Shown here one piece after another: positions 50,644-60,210 of a stretch of 64,000 bases of DNA. Position 1 is the first letter of the stretch, and each line of letters begins with the position of its first letter. Where the stretch lies: IMG/VR virus record IMGVR_UViG_3300044712_001462, positions 62,001 to 126,000 of that record, one strand, 5' to 3'. Made by a program: the position numbers and the translations under genes. The DNA is from a virus. The notes beneath the pieces were generated by a model. The model was not told where the DNA came from. It saw nothing but the letters and a program-made list of their open reading frames with translations, and did no database searches.

Positions 50644-52542
50644 TTAGGACTCTAGTGAAGTTGGTTTTGGAGGTTTGGGAGTCTGTACAGCACCCGATAA
50701 TCCGAAGTCCACCGCCCGGGCCCGAGAAGGTACAAAACTGGTTCCGGATTCGTCTGAAGTAGCACCACGATGTACCGCTTTCGTCAGACTGGATTTGAGT
50801 CCGGAGCCAAATAAGCGCACCATCCAGTCCGGATCGTGCTGGAGGTTCGACATACCCCGAATCATCTCTGGCTCAAACGGCGGGGGATCATCGTGGACAT
50901 CCACATTACGAATCCCGAACTCCCGCATATTCGCCAGCATCGAAGGACGGATTTTTGTACCAATGGAGTAATGCAGGTAGGGTCTCTCGAGATACTTACC
51001 CACAGCCTCAGACGGCGTCACAGAGCGAAAACCAGGCCTTGGTTCGTAATTGCGTTCCAGAGTCGAGTAGGGCACCACATCGTCTGGAGCATAGTTGCCA
51101 TACTCCTCGCTCATCCGCACATGGTTGATAAGGCCTCTGGCTAAGAGTTCCACGTTGCGCCGGTGAGACTTCAGCCCAGAGTCTCGCATGGCTTTCTGGA
51201 AGATGTCGACGAAGTACTTACGACCCTCACCCACGCCTTTGTACTGGGTAATCAAAGCAGGACTGGGCTCGCCGTCGGATAAAACATCACCGGCTTCGAC
51301 GGTATCACCACGTTTGACTGTGGGCTCAAAGCCCTTAGCCACATAGTGCTTTGTACCATTGACCGAGATGAAGTGGCCACCAGCTGGCGCAGGCTCTACC
51401 GACTGCACAATCCCATCGATCGTGGCATGCGCTGCCCCGCCTTTAAAAGTCTTGGGTACTTGGATCAGTTGGTTGATACGAGCAAAGCCAGTCAGGTTCT
51501 GCCGCTGACCTGAAGCCACACCACCAGAGTGCTTTTCAGAGAGAGCGGATTGTGTAAGAGGCTCGGTCAGGCTCTGGGCAGCTGAAAGTCCAATCGCTTC
51601 ATGCCGGACAGGTAGACGGTTAAACTCACGAATACCCGCATCTTTGGCATATATGCCACCGTCCGGACTTCCAGATACAGCCGGGCTACGTACGAGAATC
51701 TTTTTGAAGCCCTTGTTCTCGATGTCTCGGAGGATCTTCGGTGTGAGAATGGTGTTGCGAGCATACCCAGCGACGGGATGGGCTAGGAGCGAACCTTCTG
51801 AGTCGGAATCCGTGACATCAACAGGTAAGCCTCGCAAAGTAGTGGGCTCACCTTCTTCGTCATCATCTGTCACCAGCAGACGATGTGTAATCTGTGCTAA
51901 TTGCTTACCCAGAAAGCCACTATCCGCGGTGGCGAGCTTCGTGGAGATCACCCCTCTTCTGGCCCCGTATGTACCCGCCCAATATTCCAAGGGAGATAAT
52001 CCCTGGCTATAACTGCGCATTACAGGAACAGGAATGATGTTGTTTTTGTAGTCTTGGTAGAGCAGATCACTGCCACGCATACTGGCGAGCGTCATCTTGT
52101 TTCCGCGGCCTGCTCCTTCCAGTTGATGTGCCAGAGGGTTATCCTCAGCCTTCGACTCCTGGAAGATCTCTTCTTGCTGGGTAGCCTGCAGTCTACCTGT
52201 GAGCTTAATCAGCTCGTCGTTCAGCTGCTGCTCATCCACGTCATCTCTGTCCAGCAGCTCATCGATCTTCTCTTGGAGCTCAGCCCTACGGTGTTTGGCT
52301 GTTACCGCTTGCTTGAGATGGCGGAGCCCAAAGGATTGTCCTCCAGTGCGGTAAGCAGCAATCCTACCAATCTGTCCGAGCTTAAACGACACATCCCGGT
52401 ATTGATCCGGGTGTTTCATCGCCAACTCACTCAGCAGACTACCCAGCGACTTCTTAGTGATGGGACGATGGTAGTCCCGGAGATCCTCAGGAAGGACCTC
52501 ATTGATGAGAAGCTGCCCAGCTGTGCTTTGCATCCGTGCCAT
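50644..52542 (-). CDS. RNA polymerase beta-prime, C-terminal half, 632 aa
   Basis: This gene encodes the second half of a phage multisubunit RNA polymerase beta-prime. The bridge-helix/trigger-loop region is clear at residues 144-215 (AGRGNKMTLASMRGSDLL; GARRGVISTKLATADSGFLG), matching the bacterial GARKGLADTALKTANSGYL. EAIGLSAAQSLTEPLTQ (residues 315-331) matches the conserved EAIGVIAAQSIGEPGTQ. A barrel-sandwich segment (GFEPTVKRGDTVEAGDVLSD) follows. The cysteines that bind zinc in bacterial beta-prime are absent. Residues 46-80 align with the funnel region. The ATG overlaps the preceding gene as TAATG. The partner chain lies at 54475-60210. Confidence 0.93.
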   Translation of the reverse strand: MARMQSTAGQLLINEVLPEDLRDYHRPITKKSLGSLLSELAMKHPDQYRDVSFKLGQIGRIAAYRTGGQSFGLRHLKQAVTAKHRRAELQEKIDELLDRDDVDEQQLNDELIKLTGRLQATQQEEIFQESKAEDNPLAHQLEGAGRGNKMTLASMRGSDLLYQDYKNNIIPVPVMRSYSQGLSPLEYWAGTYGARRGVISTKLATADSGFLGKQLAQITHRLLVTDDDEEGEPTTLRGLPVDVTDSDSEGSLLAHPVAGYARNTILTPKILRDIENKGFKKILVRSPAVSGSPDGGIYAKDAGIREFNRLPVRHEAIGLSAAQSLTEPLTQSALSEKHSGGVASGQRQNLTGFARINQLIQVPKTFKGGAAHATIDGIVQSVEPAPAGGHFISVNGTKHYVAKGFEPTVKRGDTVEAGDVLSDGEPSPALITQYKGVGEGRKYFVDIFQKAMRDSGLKSHRRNVELLARGLINHVRMSEEYGNYAPDDVVPYSTLERNYEPRPGFRSVTPSEAVGKYLERPYLHYSIGTKIRPSMLANMREFGIRNVDVHDDPPPFEPEMIRGMSNLQHDPDWMVRLFGSGLKSSLTKAVHRGATSDESGTSFVPSRARAVDFGLSGAVQTPKPPKPTSLES

Positions 52543-53131: not shown

Positions 53132-53500
53132 TTACCTCAGTAGATCCAGCTTACCTTTAACCAGTACATCCTTGAGCGAGGCAACCTTACCTGTCCTATG
53201 ATCTCTGGCTAATCCAGACTTGTAGTCATAGGTGCGGATCGTGGTGGTATCTTTGATAGCCTCGTCGCGCCTAGCTTTCTTTTCTTTAGCCTTTTGGGCT
53301 AGTTTCTGATCCTCTAGGCGTTGTTCCAGCTCAGCCATCGCCTGCTTGAGGTTCTGGCCCTGATCCCGACCATCAATACGCACTACGATCCCAGTAGGGA
53401 TATGCGTAATCTTCACACAGGAACACACTTTGTTACGGTTTTGGCCTCCTGGACCTTTACCGCGGATGCGTTCAATGTTGAGTTGATCTTTGGGGATCAC
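53132..53500 (-). CDS. Release factor GGQ-domain protein, 122 aa
   Basis: The sequence matches domain 3 of class I peptide chain release factors: residues 12-22 (IRGKGPGGQNR) carry the GGQ tripeptide (residues 18-20) that triggers peptidyl-tRNA hydrolysis, followed by VKITHIPTGIVVRIDGRDQG. The C-terminal RTYDYKSGLARDHRTG and LVKGKLDLLR match the end of RF1/RF2. The codon-recognition domain is missing, as in ArfB/ICT1-type rescue factors. A GTG start overlaps the previous stop by GTGA. In a phage it may release stalled ribosomes or aid host takeover. It lies between the polymerase genes. Confidence 0.88.
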   Translation of the reverse strand: MIPKDQLNIERIRGKGPGGQNRNKVCSCVKITHIPTGIVVRIDGRDQGQNLKQAMAELEQRLEDQKLAQKAKEKKARRDEAIKDTTTIRTYDYKSGLARDHRTGKVASLKDVLVKGKLDLLR

Positions 53501-54474: not shown

Positions 54475-57400
54475 CTACTCCAACACTTCTACGGGGTCAG
54501 TGAATCCCACTTCACCACGCATGACCGCGGCTTTGAGATCACGGATACTGCGGAACGTACGGGGCTTTTTGTTCGCCTTGAAAGCAGAAGCGGCATACAG
54601 CCCGCCGACGTATTCCTGGCTGGGCGCATGCACAGGTGACTTGAAATCACCCGGGCTAAGTAAGTTGGCGCTGGGTAAGAGACGATCAATCGCCTCTTGG
54701 CGCGCCTCATCCTTTACCGGCACCTGGAAGTTCATCTGATCGCCATCGAAGTCGGCATTAAAGCCTTTCACCACCAGGGGGCTAATCTCCATGGTGTTGT
54801 GCTTTGTAAGCTGGGGCCAGAAAGCCATGATGCCAAAGCGGTGAAGAACCGGTGCCCGGTTAATGATGACAGGCCTGTGACCCATCTCAGCCACCATCTC
54901 ATTACGGGCGAGTTCTGACCGGTTCTCGACCTGCTTAAGGGCTTCGACAACGGGTAATCCGCGGCGCTTAAGTCTGCGTACCACGAAGGGTTTATACAGA
55001 TTCCACGCTTTGTCTTCCGGTAGGGCCACTTGATCCATATCCAGTTCGGGATTGGGAGCAATTACCGCGCGGCCTACTACGTCGACTGGAGTGGAAAGAA
55101 GACGACGCTGCACGACTCCAAACTTCGGGCTACTTCCGAAGACCGTCCTTAGTAATCCCTGGACATTCTTCTCCACCAGCTTGGGATGTACAGGATCACC
55201 AAGGCCTGTCACCGCCTTGAAAGCATCGTAGGCAGCTTTCTGCTCATCACCCACATCATCCGTGATGTCCGACATCTCTTTCCAGTTGCTGTTGGCCTCC
55301 ATCAGCTCCTTGTAGAGATAATTGGGATCTGAGACGAGCGGCAGTTTCTTGTCTGTCATTGTGGAGACAGGACGAAACCGCGGAGGGAGAACGGGAACAG
55401 CCGAGAGCACCCAATCCTTAGGATGAATACCCAGCTCTTTAGCTGACTTGAGATAGCCGAGCTTCCGCACCGCCTCATCTCGGTAGGTCTTCTTCCCCGA
55501 AGCGATCTGGGCTCGGGCGACTTCAAGTTCTTTATCCAGATTGATGGACTGCAGCGCCTTGGAGATCGCACTAGGCCCGGTGCCCCATTGCGTGCGCTCT
55601 TTCCCAGCCACGATGTCGTCAAACTTCTTCTGGGTAAGACCGAGGATCTTCCGGATCGGCTCTTCCATCACTGGATTAGGAAGCGGCTGATGGAGCTTCA
55701 CAGCGCTCCATCTAGAGTTGCTAACCAACATACCGTTGGCAAAATAGTTGTGATTATCTGCTACCTCTATGTCATATACCTTTTTCGTACGAGCACCGTG
55801 CGAATCAATTTCCGAAGAATACGAGAAAGGTATTGGCTCTAGCTCGTAACGCAGCTCGGTGTCGTTTTCTACCTCAGCGACCATTGAACCCACAGACTCT
55901 GCTATGCTTACCCACTCATCCGTGGCTAGCTGCTCGTCTTCGGGCCAGCGGCCTTCACTAAGCAACTGTCTCACCGTTGCAGATGGACCAATAAGTCGGA
56001 ATATATGCCGTGGAAACTTATGCGTACCGACGGATACAGCTTCCTGCCTCATACACTCGTGACACACTCGTCGTCGTCGATTAATTTCTGCGCCGCAGCG
56101 TCGACATTTTGTGTTTTTAGGTGCAGCCGGTACCTTATAAGCGACACCTTCATTCCAGTACGGAACTGTTAATTCCAGAAGCCGGAGTGCGTGTTTGCCG
56201 CAGATTTCCAACAGGTACCCCATATCGCGTCCGACATACTTCTTTGCTTGACGGTATGTCGCCCGAATATTCCACCGCTCCGCCAACCAATTCTGCAGAA
56301 GTTCAATCTCGTGTTTCGAAAATGAATGTGTCGATATGGATATTCTTACGCTGTTATTTTTACTGTGCCGGTTAACATGAGCGTCGTCCGCAAGCCATAC
56401 GGCTAGACCCATCTCCGTAATCTTGTCTAGCCACTCTTGCGTAACCGTCTTTTTACCATTTATGTAACACAGCTGCCTGGCCTTATAGGCTTCATAAAAT
56501 GTGCGAGTACTAAATCGGAGTTTTCGCCTAACATGTCCGTCAGATGTATCAATGAAATCGCTTAGCGGCGCGGTAATAAATGGGCGTAAGATACTTGCTT
56601 TCCACTCGCAATACGCTGCCTGTTTAATGCCATGCATAGCTGTTACCTGTCCGCCAGGGGTAACGCTTAGATCTCCTAGCAGCGAGCCATAAAGCAGCTG
56701 CGTCTGGCTGTTCGACAGGCGCTCCACTACGGCCATCAAATAGTCGGCTTTAGCTAGATCTCGTTTATTGCCATTAATGTCGTACACCTGATGTTCAGGT
56801 GTGCCACGCAGTGTCGAGGCAGACCGACAACCTAACGTACCGGCTAAACTAGCTTTACAATCAAAACGACCACAGCCTACTCCGTTAGGAGAGTCATGAG
56901 TAAACCAGTTGGTGATCGGCTTCAGTTCAAACTGAGACGTGACATGGTTATAAGTCCAAACCCGCAGCGCTAGTTTTTGCTTAACGATTTTACCTATAGG
57001 CAGCATTCCGAACTCAGTCCACACTTTAACGTCCGGATGAAAACAGCCGTTATTTCCTCCGGTTAACGTAGGATCAAACAACCCACCTTTAACCGGCTCT
57101 AGATTTTTATCGAATTTGACAGTTTCACCATTCTGCAAGAATCTTGTGCTGGCCAGATGACTAACGTCTGCATCTGTTAAAGCCATTATATTTATGTTCG
57201 TACCCTCACGAACAACATTTATGCCTGACCCTTTGAGATAGTTCACAAACTTTTCGTACACCATGGGAATTTTCGGCTCAGGAGGCGTCACACCACGCAT
57301 GAAAGAGAGCCAGTAATCCTCGTTCTTCTGTCCGCGAACAGACGCTGAATCACGAATCGTTTGAGTCGCACCGTGGCTAAGTAAGGCGTTCAGATCGAGA

Positions 57401-60210
57401 AGCGCAAGTCTCTTTGAACTATCCCCACCTCCACCCTTAGCTGGTGATTCATCGGCCGTGTAACCACCAGTACTACGACCTTGCATTTTTGATTCACTAG
57501 TGTGATGCAACTTCATAAAGAACTGATTCCCCACAAGCACCTGAGGAATCTTGGTATCTGTCTCAGGATCCACTACATCCTCGAGATCCGTCATACCGTG
57601 TTTCTGCAGTTCTTTCTCTGCGAACTCCACCAGATCCTCGATCGATTCAAAGTCCTGGATGTTGTAGGGCTTACCAGTCTTAGCTGCGATCTTCCCCAGG
57701 GCTGTTTCCACAATCTGACTAGGATTCACGCGAGAGATAATACCCAGTGGATTAAGCGCTACCTCGATGGGCTGTCCATCCGCGGTACGTGGCATCTCAT
57801 CATCAGGCAGAATCGCTGAAATCACACCCTTCCCGCCATACCTGTTGCTAAGTTTATCGGCTACAGCCATGGGTACATACGACTTCACAAACGCGGTGGT
57901 ACCCTTCGGGCCTTTGTAGACATCCGTAACGATTCCCGGTGTATGATGCTCCCACTTATCTGTGACATCTGAGAACGACGAAGAGCCTTTTTTGTGGATC
58001 TTGTTCTTCGCGTCATCTCGCTGTCGTGCAGCCAGAATCAGCGGATCCCCATAGTTGACTACGGTGCCCGGTAAGATCACCCCATCGTCATCCATCTTCT
58101 CGAGCGTGGCTTTGTTGAACTTCGCTGGAAACAGAGAGATGAAATCACGCTTACTAGTCTTTAAGGAGTCTGATTTATCGACTCCATGTTGATACATGTG
58201 CTCAGAGGTAAGCTTCTTGGCTGCAGACTCTGAAAGGACAATGGCGTCTTCGAAGTTGTAGCCCTTCATGGCTACATACCCAGTCTTCAGATTCTTACCC
58301 AAGGCTGTCACACCTTCATCATCGGTGTAGTTGGACTTAGCTAAGAGTTGTCCCGGCTTAAAGACATCACCAGGCTTCACCATCGGGGTATTGTGCAAAG
58401 AACTTTTTCTGTTGAATGCGAAGTGCTCATAGAGCTCAATGTCAGCTGTTTCTCCGTCATCGTATTTCACCTTCATGGAGCCCGGTGACACAGAGACAAC
58501 CCGCCCAGGCCTATCGGCTCGCACAATACCCATGTGCTTACCATACTGAGCTTCATAGCTATCGTCGTCAGAACCTGGCACACCAGAGCGTACCAATGGC
58601 GCTTCAGGTTGCTCGAGAGGAAGAGCCTGACTGAGCATCCTCCCTGCCATTGCCATGCGTTGAGCCTTCATACCCGACTTCATGGGCACCAGATTACCCA
58701 GTGGAGAGAATGCGCTCTCGAAGTTGGGGAGTTCGTACTGGATCTGATCGCGGGGAACAAATCCCAGTACACCGCCTTTCATGGCTCCCACGCGCTTGGT
58801 TTTACGCTTGAGTTCACCTGGGAAAGCCACAGCTGAATCGACTAAATCCTGGGGCGACTTATTAACGATCTTCCCTGTCCGGGTATCGCGCAGGGGGATG
58901 TAGATTTTCCCATCCTGACCCTTCTTTGCCACGCTCGACAAATAGAGGTCCACACCCACGTTCATGTTTTCTGGTGTGCGTACGCTATCAAGAAAACCAA
59001 AGTGAGAGGGCTGCACAGATCTAGCTTCATCAGGTACAGAATCTGAGGAGGGTATGCCACCTTCGCCCATCCTGGTAATACGCCCTTGCTTATCCAACAG
59101 CTCAGCCGTATTGATCTCTTCCAGGTTACTACCCAGCCCCGACGAGATGAGCACAGACTCCAGTTGCTTAGTGAGGGCAGAAGTGGGAACGCCGCCTAGA
59201 TTCCCCTTAAAACTGGCTTTCCTCAGCAGATCTCGCTGCATCCCGCCATAGTCTTTCTCCAGGCGCTCAGACAGCAGATCCTCTGGGCCCATGATCGTCT
59301 GAAAGGCTAAGTGATCGCGATCGTCTACCTCTTGTTCACCACGAGATACTGCTAACAGCTTTTTGGTAATCGTGAGAATCGTATCGAGATCTACTTTAGT
59401 GTAGCCCTGGCCCAGCGTCTTATGCGTGACGTGAGGATCCAGCTCCATCTTCAACATGGCTTCCGCGATCGCCTTTTGCTTACTCTCTGGCTCCGCGGCA
59501 TCATCCCGTTTACGTACTAAGCGCTGATACAGCTTGTTGAGCGCACCCGGGTTGTTCTGTTGAGCATTGGCGTTCCAGATCTCATTTCCCCAGGCCTCTT
59601 GGAGCTGTCGGTCTGTAGCGCCCATAGCTTTGAGGAGAGGCATGACAGGAATCTTCGCCTGACCAATCCGCATCGCAAAGATGTTCTTCTCAGGGTCGAG
59701 AAAATAGCGATGCGATGGGCCAGTCCCGACCTTAGCATTGACGTGCGACTCAATCTCCCCGTTGTCTTTCACCCGGGTAAACACACCCGGCCTCAGACGA
59801 GCCTGGTTAATGAGGGTATACTCATTCCCATTGTTGATAAACGTACCCCGCTGAGTCAGATAGGGTACGCGCGCAATCGTCTGCTGCTTACTATCGAGAA
59901 CAGTCCCCGTAGCGTTGTCTACCAGTTCCCAAGTTCCCCTCAGCCGCCTACCTAGCGTCTTACCGGCCAGAATCGCTTGTTTCTGGTCGGCCAGGCTGAT
60001 GTGGTCTTTATCCACATAATCCACTCCCGACAAACGCAAAGTATGCCTGGAGTTGGTGACTGGCTTAAGGTTCTGGGCGGATTTTAGCACTCTGTCAAAG
60101 ATAAACCGCCGCGTGCGCAGAGGATCACCAAACTCACGTTGGTCATCTTCTGGTTGCTGCGGCTGTTGAGGAGAGAGAATGCTATTCGTGGGACCGAGGA
60201 TACCACTCAT
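54475..60210 (-). CDS. RNA polymerase beta / beta-prime N-terminal fusion with intein, 1911 aa
   Basis: The chain reads as bacterial-type beta then beta-prime without a gap. Beta features: RVPYLTQRGTFINNGNEYTL near residue 110, GYNFEDAIVLSES at 650, NRYGGKGVIS at 789 (Lys794 at the conserved Lys position) and IEVALNPLGIISRVNPSQ after it. A short linker leads to beta-prime (KGGLFDPTLTGGNNG), interrupted by an intein (residues 1056-1498), then SRWSAVKLHQPLPNP, the VLSAVPVLPPRFRP segment and the catalytic NADFDGDQM at 1818-1826 (three Mg-binding Asp). It stops 85 residues later; the remainder is the gene at 50644. Without the intein it is 1468 residues. No alpha or omega gene was found in the window. 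Confidence 0.95.
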   Translation of the reverse strand: MSGILGPTNSILSPQQPQQPEDDQREFGDPLRTRRFIFDRVLKSAQNLKPVTNSRHTLRLSGVDYVDKDHISLADQKQAILAGKTLGRRLRGTWELVDNATGTVLDSKQQTIARVPYLTQRGTFINNGNEYTLINQARLRPGVFTRVKDNGEIESHVNAKVGTGPSHRYFLDPEKNIFAMRIGQAKIPVMPLLKAMGATDRQLQEAWGNEIWNANAQQNNPGALNKLYQRLVRKRDDAAEPESKQKAIAEAMLKMELDPHVTHKTLGQGYTKVDLDTILTITKKLLAVSRGEQEVDDRDHLAFQTIMGPEDLLSERLEKDYGGMQRDLLRKASFKGNLGGVPTSALTKQLESVLISSGLGSNLEEINTAELLDKQGRITRMGEGGIPSSDSVPDEARSVQPSHFGFLDSVRTPENMNVGVDLYLSSVAKKGQDGKIYIPLRDTRTGKIVNKSPQDLVDSAVAFPGELKRKTKRVGAMKGGVLGFVPRDQIQYELPNFESAFSPLGNLVPMKSGMKAQRMAMAGRMLSQALPLEQPEAPLVRSGVPGSDDDSYEAQYGKHMGIVRADRPGRVVSVSPGSMKVKYDDGETADIELYEHFAFNRKSSLHNTPMVKPGDVFKPGQLLAKSNYTDDEGVTALGKNLKTGYVAMKGYNFEDAIVLSESAAKKLTSEHMYQHGVDKSDSLKTSKRDFISLFPAKFNKATLEKMDDDGVILPGTVVNYGDPLILAARQRDDAKNKIHKKGSSSFSDVTDKWEHHTPGIVTDVYKGPKGTTAFVKSYVPMAVADKLSNRYGGKGVISAILPDDEMPRTADGQPIEVALNPLGIISRVNPSQIVETALGKIAAKTGKPYNIQDFESIEDLVEFAEKELQKHGMTDLEDVVDPETDTKIPQVLVGNQFFMKLHHTSESKMQGRSTGGYTADESPAKGGGGDSSKRLALLDLNALLSHGATQTIRDSASVRGQKNEDYWLSFMRGVTPPEPKIPMVYEKFVNYLKGSGINVVREGTNINIMALTDADVSHLASTRFLQNGETVKFDKNLEPVKGGLFDPTLTGGNNGCFHPDVKVWTEFGMLPIGKIVKQKLALRVWTYNHVTSQFELKPITNWFTHDSPNGVGCGRFDCKASLAGTLGCRSASTLRGTPEHQVYDINGNKRDLAKADYLMAVVERLSNSQTQLLYGSLLGDLSVTPGGQVTAMHGIKQAAYCEWKASILRPFITAPLSDFIDTSDGHVRRKLRFSTRTFYEAYKARQLCYINGKKTVTQEWLDKITEMGLAVWLADDAHVNRHSKNNSVRISISTHSFSKHEIELLQNWLAERWNIRATYRQAKKYVGRDMGYLLEICGKHALRLLELTVPYWNEGVAYKVPAAPKNTKCRRCGAEINRRRRVCHECMRQEAVSVGTHKFPRHIFRLIGPSATVRQLLSEGRWPEDEQLATDEWVSIAESVGSMVAEVENDTELRYELEPIPFSYSSEIDSHGARTKKVYDIEVADNHNYFANGMLVSNSRWSAVKLHQPLPNPVMEEPIRKILGLTQKKFDDIVAGKERTQWGTGPSAISKALQSINLDKELEVARAQIASGKKTYRDEAVRKLGYLKSAKELGIHPKDWVLSAVPVLPPRFRPVSTMTDKKLPLVSDPNYLYKELMEANSNWKEMSDITDDVGDEQKAAYDAFKAVTGLGDPVHPKLVEKNVQGLLRTVFGSSPKFGVVQRRLLSTPVDVVGRAVIAPNPELDMDQVALPEDKAWNLYKPFVVRRLKRRGLPVVEALKQVENRSELARNEMVAEMGHRPVIINRAPVLHRFGIMAFWPQLTKHNTMEISPLVVKGFNADFDGDQMNFQVPVKDEARQEAIDRLLPSANLLSPGDFKSPVHAPSQEYVGGLYAASAFKANKKPRTFRSIRDLKAAVMRGEVGFTDPVEVLE
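55717..57045 (-). mobile_element. Intein with LAGLIDADG-type endonuclease in RNA polymerase
   Basis: The insert covers residues 1056-1498 of the fused polymerase chain. It starts Cys1056 (CFHPDVKVWTEFGMLPIG, block A), has a block B GTPEHQVYD near 1135, two LAGLIDADG-like helices (LLYGSLLGDLSV near 1174; VWLADDAHVN near 1272), a four-cysteine ribbon (CRRCGAEINRRRRVCHEC) near 1370 and ends with VYDIEVADNHNYFANGMLVSN before Ser1499 (block F/G). The usual penultimate His is Ser here. Protein splicing would join GGNNG to SRWSAV. The second catalytic-type position reads D-D, so endonuclease activity is plausible but not certain. Confidence 0.93.

Follow-up and report, generated by a model that had tools for sequence, protein, structure and literature searches.

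We analyzed a window of 64,000 nucleotides (bases 62001-126000 of the 224,528-base virus record IMGVR_UViG_3300044712_001462), whose minus strand carries a gene for a phage-encoded RNA polymerase in which the β subunit is fused to the N-terminal half of β′. We confirmed that this gene contains, at 55717-57045 on the minus strand, an intein bearing a LAGLIDADG endonuclease, inserted at the start of β′ (Table 1). In profile searches the open reading frame (ORF) matched RNA_pol_Rpb2_6 (E = 3e-48), RNA_pol_Rpb1_2 (1e-24) and PRK09603 β/β′ (2e-104). Residues 1-1055 and 1499-1911 correspond to β and the N-terminal half of β′; with their Rpb2 and Rpb1 domains and the NADFDGD motif they belong to the multisubunit β/β′ family. 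A first-pass annotation, made from the DNA letters without database searches, had proposed an intein in such a host at this point, and its coordinates proved exact: Cys1, GTPEH, the LAGLIDADG motifs and an SN/S junction (the slash marks the splice point) are all present, while the Rpb2/Rpb1 domains and our alignments bear out both the β/β′ host and the insertion at the start of β′. The annotation did not name a strand; a plus-strand reading of the same interval was rejected, its translation making no coding sense.

Table 1. Coordinates of the polymerase genes, the intein and its parts, numbered from the first base of the window
Feature	Position	Strand	Remarks
Fused β + N-terminal half of β′ RNA polymerase gene	54475..60210	-	1911 aa precursor, 1468 aa spliced
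N-extein: β and first residues of β′, 1055 aa	57046..60210	-	
Intein, 443 aa, Cys1 to Asn443 (ORF residues 1056-1498)	55717..57045	-	Profile matches and same-site allele
Block A CFHPDVKVWTEFG, nucleophile Cys1	57007..57045	-	
Block B GTPEHQVYDING (TxxH; GTPEHQVYD; T82/H85)	56770..56805	-	
LAGLIDADG_2 homing endonuclease domain, I-SceI-like	56203..56718	-	Pfam 3e-25, Foldseek
LAGLIDADG motif 1 LLYGSLLGDLSV, Asp125	56662..56697	-	Asp125 invariant in 10 related inteins
LAGLIDADG motif 2 MGLAVWLADDAHV, Asp220/Asp221	56374..56412	-	Both Asp invariant in 10 related inteins
Four-Cys ribbon CRRCGAEINRRRRVCHEC	56053..56106	-	Alignment of 10 relatives
Basic stretch GTHKFPRHIFRLIG, 3′ of ribbon	55987..56028	-	Kept in allele; probable DNA contact
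Block F VYDIEVADNHNYFANG (DNHNYFANG)	55732..55779	-	
Block G NGMLVSN, terminal Asn443, penultimate Ser442	55717..55737	-	
C-extein: N-terminal half of β′ with NADFDGD, first residue Ser+1 (55714-55716)	54475..55716	-	
β′ C-terminal half, separate gene, 632 aa, intein-free	50644..52542	-	RNA_pol_Rpb1_5 7e-21; TIGR02386 rpoC 5e-52

The insert matched Pfam LAGLIDADG_2 and the C-terminal intein profile TIGR01443 (28.5 bits against a cut-off of 15.6) far above chance. The residues that define the intein blocks (C1, T82/H85, N443 and S+1) are all intact, and the block B His, Asp125, Asp220/221, the D-N-H-N-Y of block F and the terminal Asn are invariant across ten related inteins. An AlphaFold (AF2) model of the intein (mean predicted local distance difference test, pLDDT, 75.5) has the HINT splicing fold, superimposing on Npu DnaE with 1.7 Å over 98 columns and a template modelling (TM) score of 0.75 by target length. 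Its nuclease part matched I-WcaI and I-SceI in Foldseek searches with E values of 1e-11 to 1e-12 (TM 0.74-0.76 by target length), so that both LAGLIDADG motifs, with their catalytic Asp residues, lie within an I-SceI fold. The usual, although not obligatory, penultimate His is replaced by Ser442, and the same-site allele described below also has Ser. The first-pass annotation regarded this as uncommon, but here it is not: most inteins of this phage polymerase family have Ser or Gly at this position, and the split inteins at site ~930, among others, end in VSN/S.

Relatives were collected by scanning IMG/VR, which gave 387 confirmed stretches, of which 80 were kept; in all, 92 distinct related loci were compared, a biased sample in that most had been selected by their similarity to a single query, and one (L175) was found via the intein itself. 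Sites are numbered by residues of the spliced chain, with the bacterial residue in brackets where given. At site 1055, that of the window's intein, the junction runs on uninterrupted and without insert in 91 of the 92 loci (GGHHG-RRW, GGHGG-TMW, GGHNG-NRW and similar), giving the intein-free homologues with a contiguous junction that had been proposed as a check. Vibrio phage D69 and Salmonella phage Arash, with the same two-gene layout, are likewise insert-free. The first-pass annotation noted that inteins favor essential, conserved sites; this one does lie at the start of β′, but it is not strongly conserved, the +1 residue in the empty relatives being N (53), T (13), K (7), R (6), S (4), Q (4), D (2) or A (2), and it coincides with a missing zinc-binding domain (see below).

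The best IMG/VR relative of the intein occupies the identical codon in the polymerase homologue of L105/L175 (contig 3300035698_004207) and is 38.7% identical over 443 aa, with junctions GGHGG/CFHPM...NYFANGILVSN/SRWSH; the other matching intein in the L105 gene is only 29% identical. Site 1055 therefore has an allelic family, with homologous inteins at one and the same codon in two genomes. When both of these inteins served as queries, the scan returned only L105 again and no third allele, and in bacterial genomes seven loci held relatives of the intein, none of them an allele. Because 91 of 92 loci have no insert at this site, and an intein 39% identical occupies exactly the same point in L105/L175, we interpret the intein as a homing allele. 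Its rare and patchy carriage (two of 93 family members, the window and L105/L175), together with its intact nuclease, fits a selfish element. In a tree of the exteins, the window and L175 are not sisters.

This distribution also bears on the idea, raised in the first-pass annotation, that splicing is tied to time or redox state. The intein would then have been co-opted, with splicing of the polymerase withheld until some condition (time, redox, zinc or temperature) is reached, allowing the phage to set the timing of its transcription. Some inteins are known to splice conditionally, which provides a precedent; the host chain looks essential, and a ribbon rich in Cys could act as a sensor of redox state or metal. 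However, only two of 93 family members carry the intein and the 91 others do without it, the GGNNG/SRW flank contains no cysteine, the ribbon belongs to the nuclease part, away from the splicing center, and an intact nuclease is what an actively homing element would have. With no support in either sequence or distribution, we rejected redox or time control, which we consider very unlikely.

The position of the insert within the polymerase was defined using hhalign and MAFFT, which aligned GGLFDPxLTGG of the phage chain with GLFCARIFGP of bacterial β′, and WSHIxL with MGHIEL. The 32-residue gap between these blocks corresponds to the zinc-binding domain of bacterial β′, which is absent from all of the aligned phage relatives; because of this gap, the intein is placed at the point where that domain is deleted, around β′ residue 67. 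An AlphaFold model of the β′ region of one relative (L010; pLDDT 65) was too weak and was not used. After the nuclease and ahead of the C-terminal splicing block, both inteins at site 1055 have an additional segment with four Cys residues, spaced CxxC/CxxC in the window and CxC/CxxC in the allele, and a basic HKxPxHI motif. It gave weak matches to zinc-ribbon Pfam families, below cut-off, and may bind zinc. The first-pass annotation was right to single out this ribbon as unusual: it is real, it is kept in one other allele, and it is absent from the other eight of the ten aligned relatives.

The coincidence of a CxxC...CxxC ribbon with the point where β′ lacks its zinc-binding domain might suggest that the intein replaced this domain and still supplies it. 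However, an excised intein is no part of the polymerase, 91 relatives lack both domain and intein, and the ribbon matched the β′ profile with an hhalign probability of only 1.2%, while shuffles that preserved the Cys residues gave values of 0.018 (window) and 0.16 (allele). A captured β′ domain was rejected as the origin of the ribbon, and we give its continued use in the polymerase virtually no credence.

We conclude, with high confidence, that the insert is both a full-size intein, complete with a nuclease, and a homing element; it is predicted to undergo class 1 splicing and then to home. The 1911-aa precursor would be translated, and Cys1 would attack the Gly-Cys bond; the acyl group would move to Ser+1 and Asn443 would cyclize, sealing the 1468-aa β-β′ chain at GGNNG-SRW, which would then be able to pair with the separate C-terminal half of β′. 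The released 443-aa I-SceI-like nuclease is predicted to cut the junction in intein-less polymerase genes of co-infecting relatives, and repair off the intein-bearing genome would copy the intein into the cut gene. The four-Cys ribbon and the basic stretch downstream of the nuclease would most likely provide extra DNA contacts for the site.

Several observations weigh against this interpretation. When aligned to intein block profiles, as the first-pass annotation had proposed, the insert matched two splicing-domain models below their cut-offs (TIGR01445 intein_Nterm, 20.1 against 24.5 bits; PF14890, 28.4 against 35.8 bits); Ser in place of the penultimate His can slow Asn cyclization; the ribbon and linker are of low confidence in the AF2 model; L175 forms a long extein branch, and both horizontal transfer and old loss fit the distribution; and splicing and cleavage are here predictions from sequence and model. 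The two sub-threshold models and the penultimate Ser might even indicate that splicing has been lost and that the insert persists in a dead or tolerated polymerase domain, especially as bacterial β′ itself has an extra domain at the same place. We regard this as extremely unlikely: Cys1, the TxxH block, block F and the Asn443/Ser+1 junction are intact, and likewise in the 39%-identical allele, while a penultimate Ser or Gly is the rule in this family.

The intein at site 1055 belongs to a polymerase family rich in such elements, at least one intein being present in 20 of the 92 relatives. Inserts were mapped at sites 387 (β 538), 395 (546), 414 (565), 525 (685), 603 (763), 787 (1066), 827 (1106), 906 (1240), 930 (1265, a split intein), 948 (1283), 1055 (β′ 67) and 1381 (β′ 464), i.e., 12 sites in β-β′N, 11 of them non-allelic to that of the window, and there are about six more in the C-terminal half of β′. 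One phage (L021) has nine inteins in a single RNA polymerase, six in β-β′N (L021:2035-13109) and three in the C-terminal half of β′ (L205:2841 onward, same contig); for a Trichodesmium ribonucleotide reductase, Goodwin et al. (PMC1635734) cite a number of four, and we put the nine-intein enzyme forward without claiming an overall record. L175 has five inteins in its polymerase gene and L011 four; in L175 (L175:8468-14536) the gene that holds the allele of the window's intein also has one directly after the catalytic DYDGD of β′ (site 1381). Outside the polymerase, the L021 phage has two further inteins in a 1301-aa ORF (L208:2263 onward), and the window's own genome has a second intein in an AAA+ ATPase-like gene beyond the window (L179:1057-2973; about 142787-144703 of the record).

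At site ~930, three phages have a natural split intein with its halves in separate ORFs (L030:5316-10596, L056:2546-9632 and L090:2794-9638), a 638-residue ORF lying between them in L090. Each half of the divided gene ends or starts with half an intein, and trans-splicing is therefore needed. The polymerase gene of Vibrio phage D181 contains a group I intron (RF00028, 1.4e-26) with a homing endonuclease gene (L004:5431-6361), absent from D69. In L012, L014, L019 and L022 the β gene is divided at about extein residue 464-476, with neither intein nor group I intron; unlike in D181, no group I intron was found to account for the gene splits in these four phages or in L058. In L009, L013, L016, L018 and L020, β and the whole of β′ seem to form one fused ORF of 2078-2531 aa.

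In five relatives, the residues after the site-787 intein are SGRYG, and a stop codon comes immediately next: TAA in L015 (L015:10318), TAG in L021 (L021:9064), TGA in L029 (L029:5819), TGA in L032 (L032:7733) and TAA in L175 (L175:8465). The extein picks up at D-K-G 5-9 nucleotides past the stop, in the +1, -1 or same frame, and the L029 sequence is identical in three contigs. Because neither L029 nor L175 has a usual start codon in the interval from the stop to DKG, synthesis of the conserved DKG(V/I)(V/I) needs either recoding or an unusual start. The inteins of these five phages are about 60% identical in DNA, whereas the 36 nt leading up to the stop are 86% invariant. These 36 nt fold into a conserved hairpin of 12-13 bp (GACAAAACGTACTGGTC...GGCCGGTACGGY; -21 to -27 kcal/mol for folded stretches of 63 nt), and in each of the five loci none of 3000 synonymous recodings was as stable as the native hairpin; one pair has changed on both sides, covariation too scant for proof. 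A GGY codon precedes the stop and recurs just before GAT in L021, L029 and L032, while L015 and L175 lack a matched landing codon. Site-787 inteins without the hairpin (L011, L020 and L103) are not followed by a stop, and the element had no match in deposited phage genomes. In the extein tree L021 and L029 group together, with L015, L032 and L175 apart.

This arrangement, found in relatives and not in the window's gene, is a candidate translational bypass. Somewhat short of an even chance, in our estimate, is the combined proposal that the polymerases of this family are a landing ground open to homing elements in general and that an intein-borne, hairpin-driven stop bypass is part of β synthesis in the five members. 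Downstream of the window's polymerase gene, and adjoining it, is a gene for a 122-aa RF-1 domain protein with a GGQ motif (53132-53500, minus strand; Pfam 7e-24); this release-factor-like neighbor was rejected as a partner in the stop-codon cases, no homologue being present in the relatives' loci examined.

Because one gene in this family offers numerous sites, with both empty and filled alleles, along with split inteins and a group I intron, a single protein suffices to compare how homing elements spread, are lost and co-exist. The two alleles at site 1055, with their metal-ribbon insert, are a testable case of intein nucleases that have additional parts for DNA binding. The stop preceded by a hairpin may represent a new recoding signal; if real, it would be the second conserved bypass of natural origin, T4 gene 60 being the first, and would lie inside a polymerase active-site loop.

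Inteins in RNA polymerases have been reported previously from eukaryotes and archaea; in the literature searched we found no report of one in a phage RNA polymerase. As in the phage family, the cellular cases (RPA2, RPB2 and RPC2, and archaeal rPol A′ and A″; Goodwin et al., 2006, PMC1635734) involve several non-allelic sites in the two large subunits, mostly by the catalytic cleft. However, the host here is a phage β/β′ fusion, site 1055 lies at the missing β′ zinc-binding domain rather than the cleft, and relatives have up to six inteins per chain and nine per enzyme. Vibrio phage D69 and Salmonella phage Arash share the β-β′N fusion and separate β′C with the window (about 32% identity) but lack the intein, whereas the D181 and D148 polymerase genes have a group I intron instead. 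The intein shares its splicing fold with Npu DnaE, which is split and without a nuclease, and its nuclease fold and both catalytic motifs with the LAGLIDADG_2 intron endonucleases I-SceI and I-WcaI, from which it differs in being embedded in an intein, in its sequence (~20% identity) and in its additional ribbon. Within the literature searched, intein-zinc finger fusions have been reported only for yeast HO and WHO (PMC7282813), which also combine a LAGLIDADG intein-like protein with CxxC zinc motifs; in HO and WHO, however, splicing is lost and the finger is C-terminal, whereas in the window the ribbon is internal to an intein whose splicing motifs are intact. Finally, the stop and 5′ hairpin in the relatives are shared with T4 gene 60, where a stop follows the take-off codon (PMC3014915, PMC5009743), and the GGY pair in L021, L029 and L032 resembles its take-off and landing codons.
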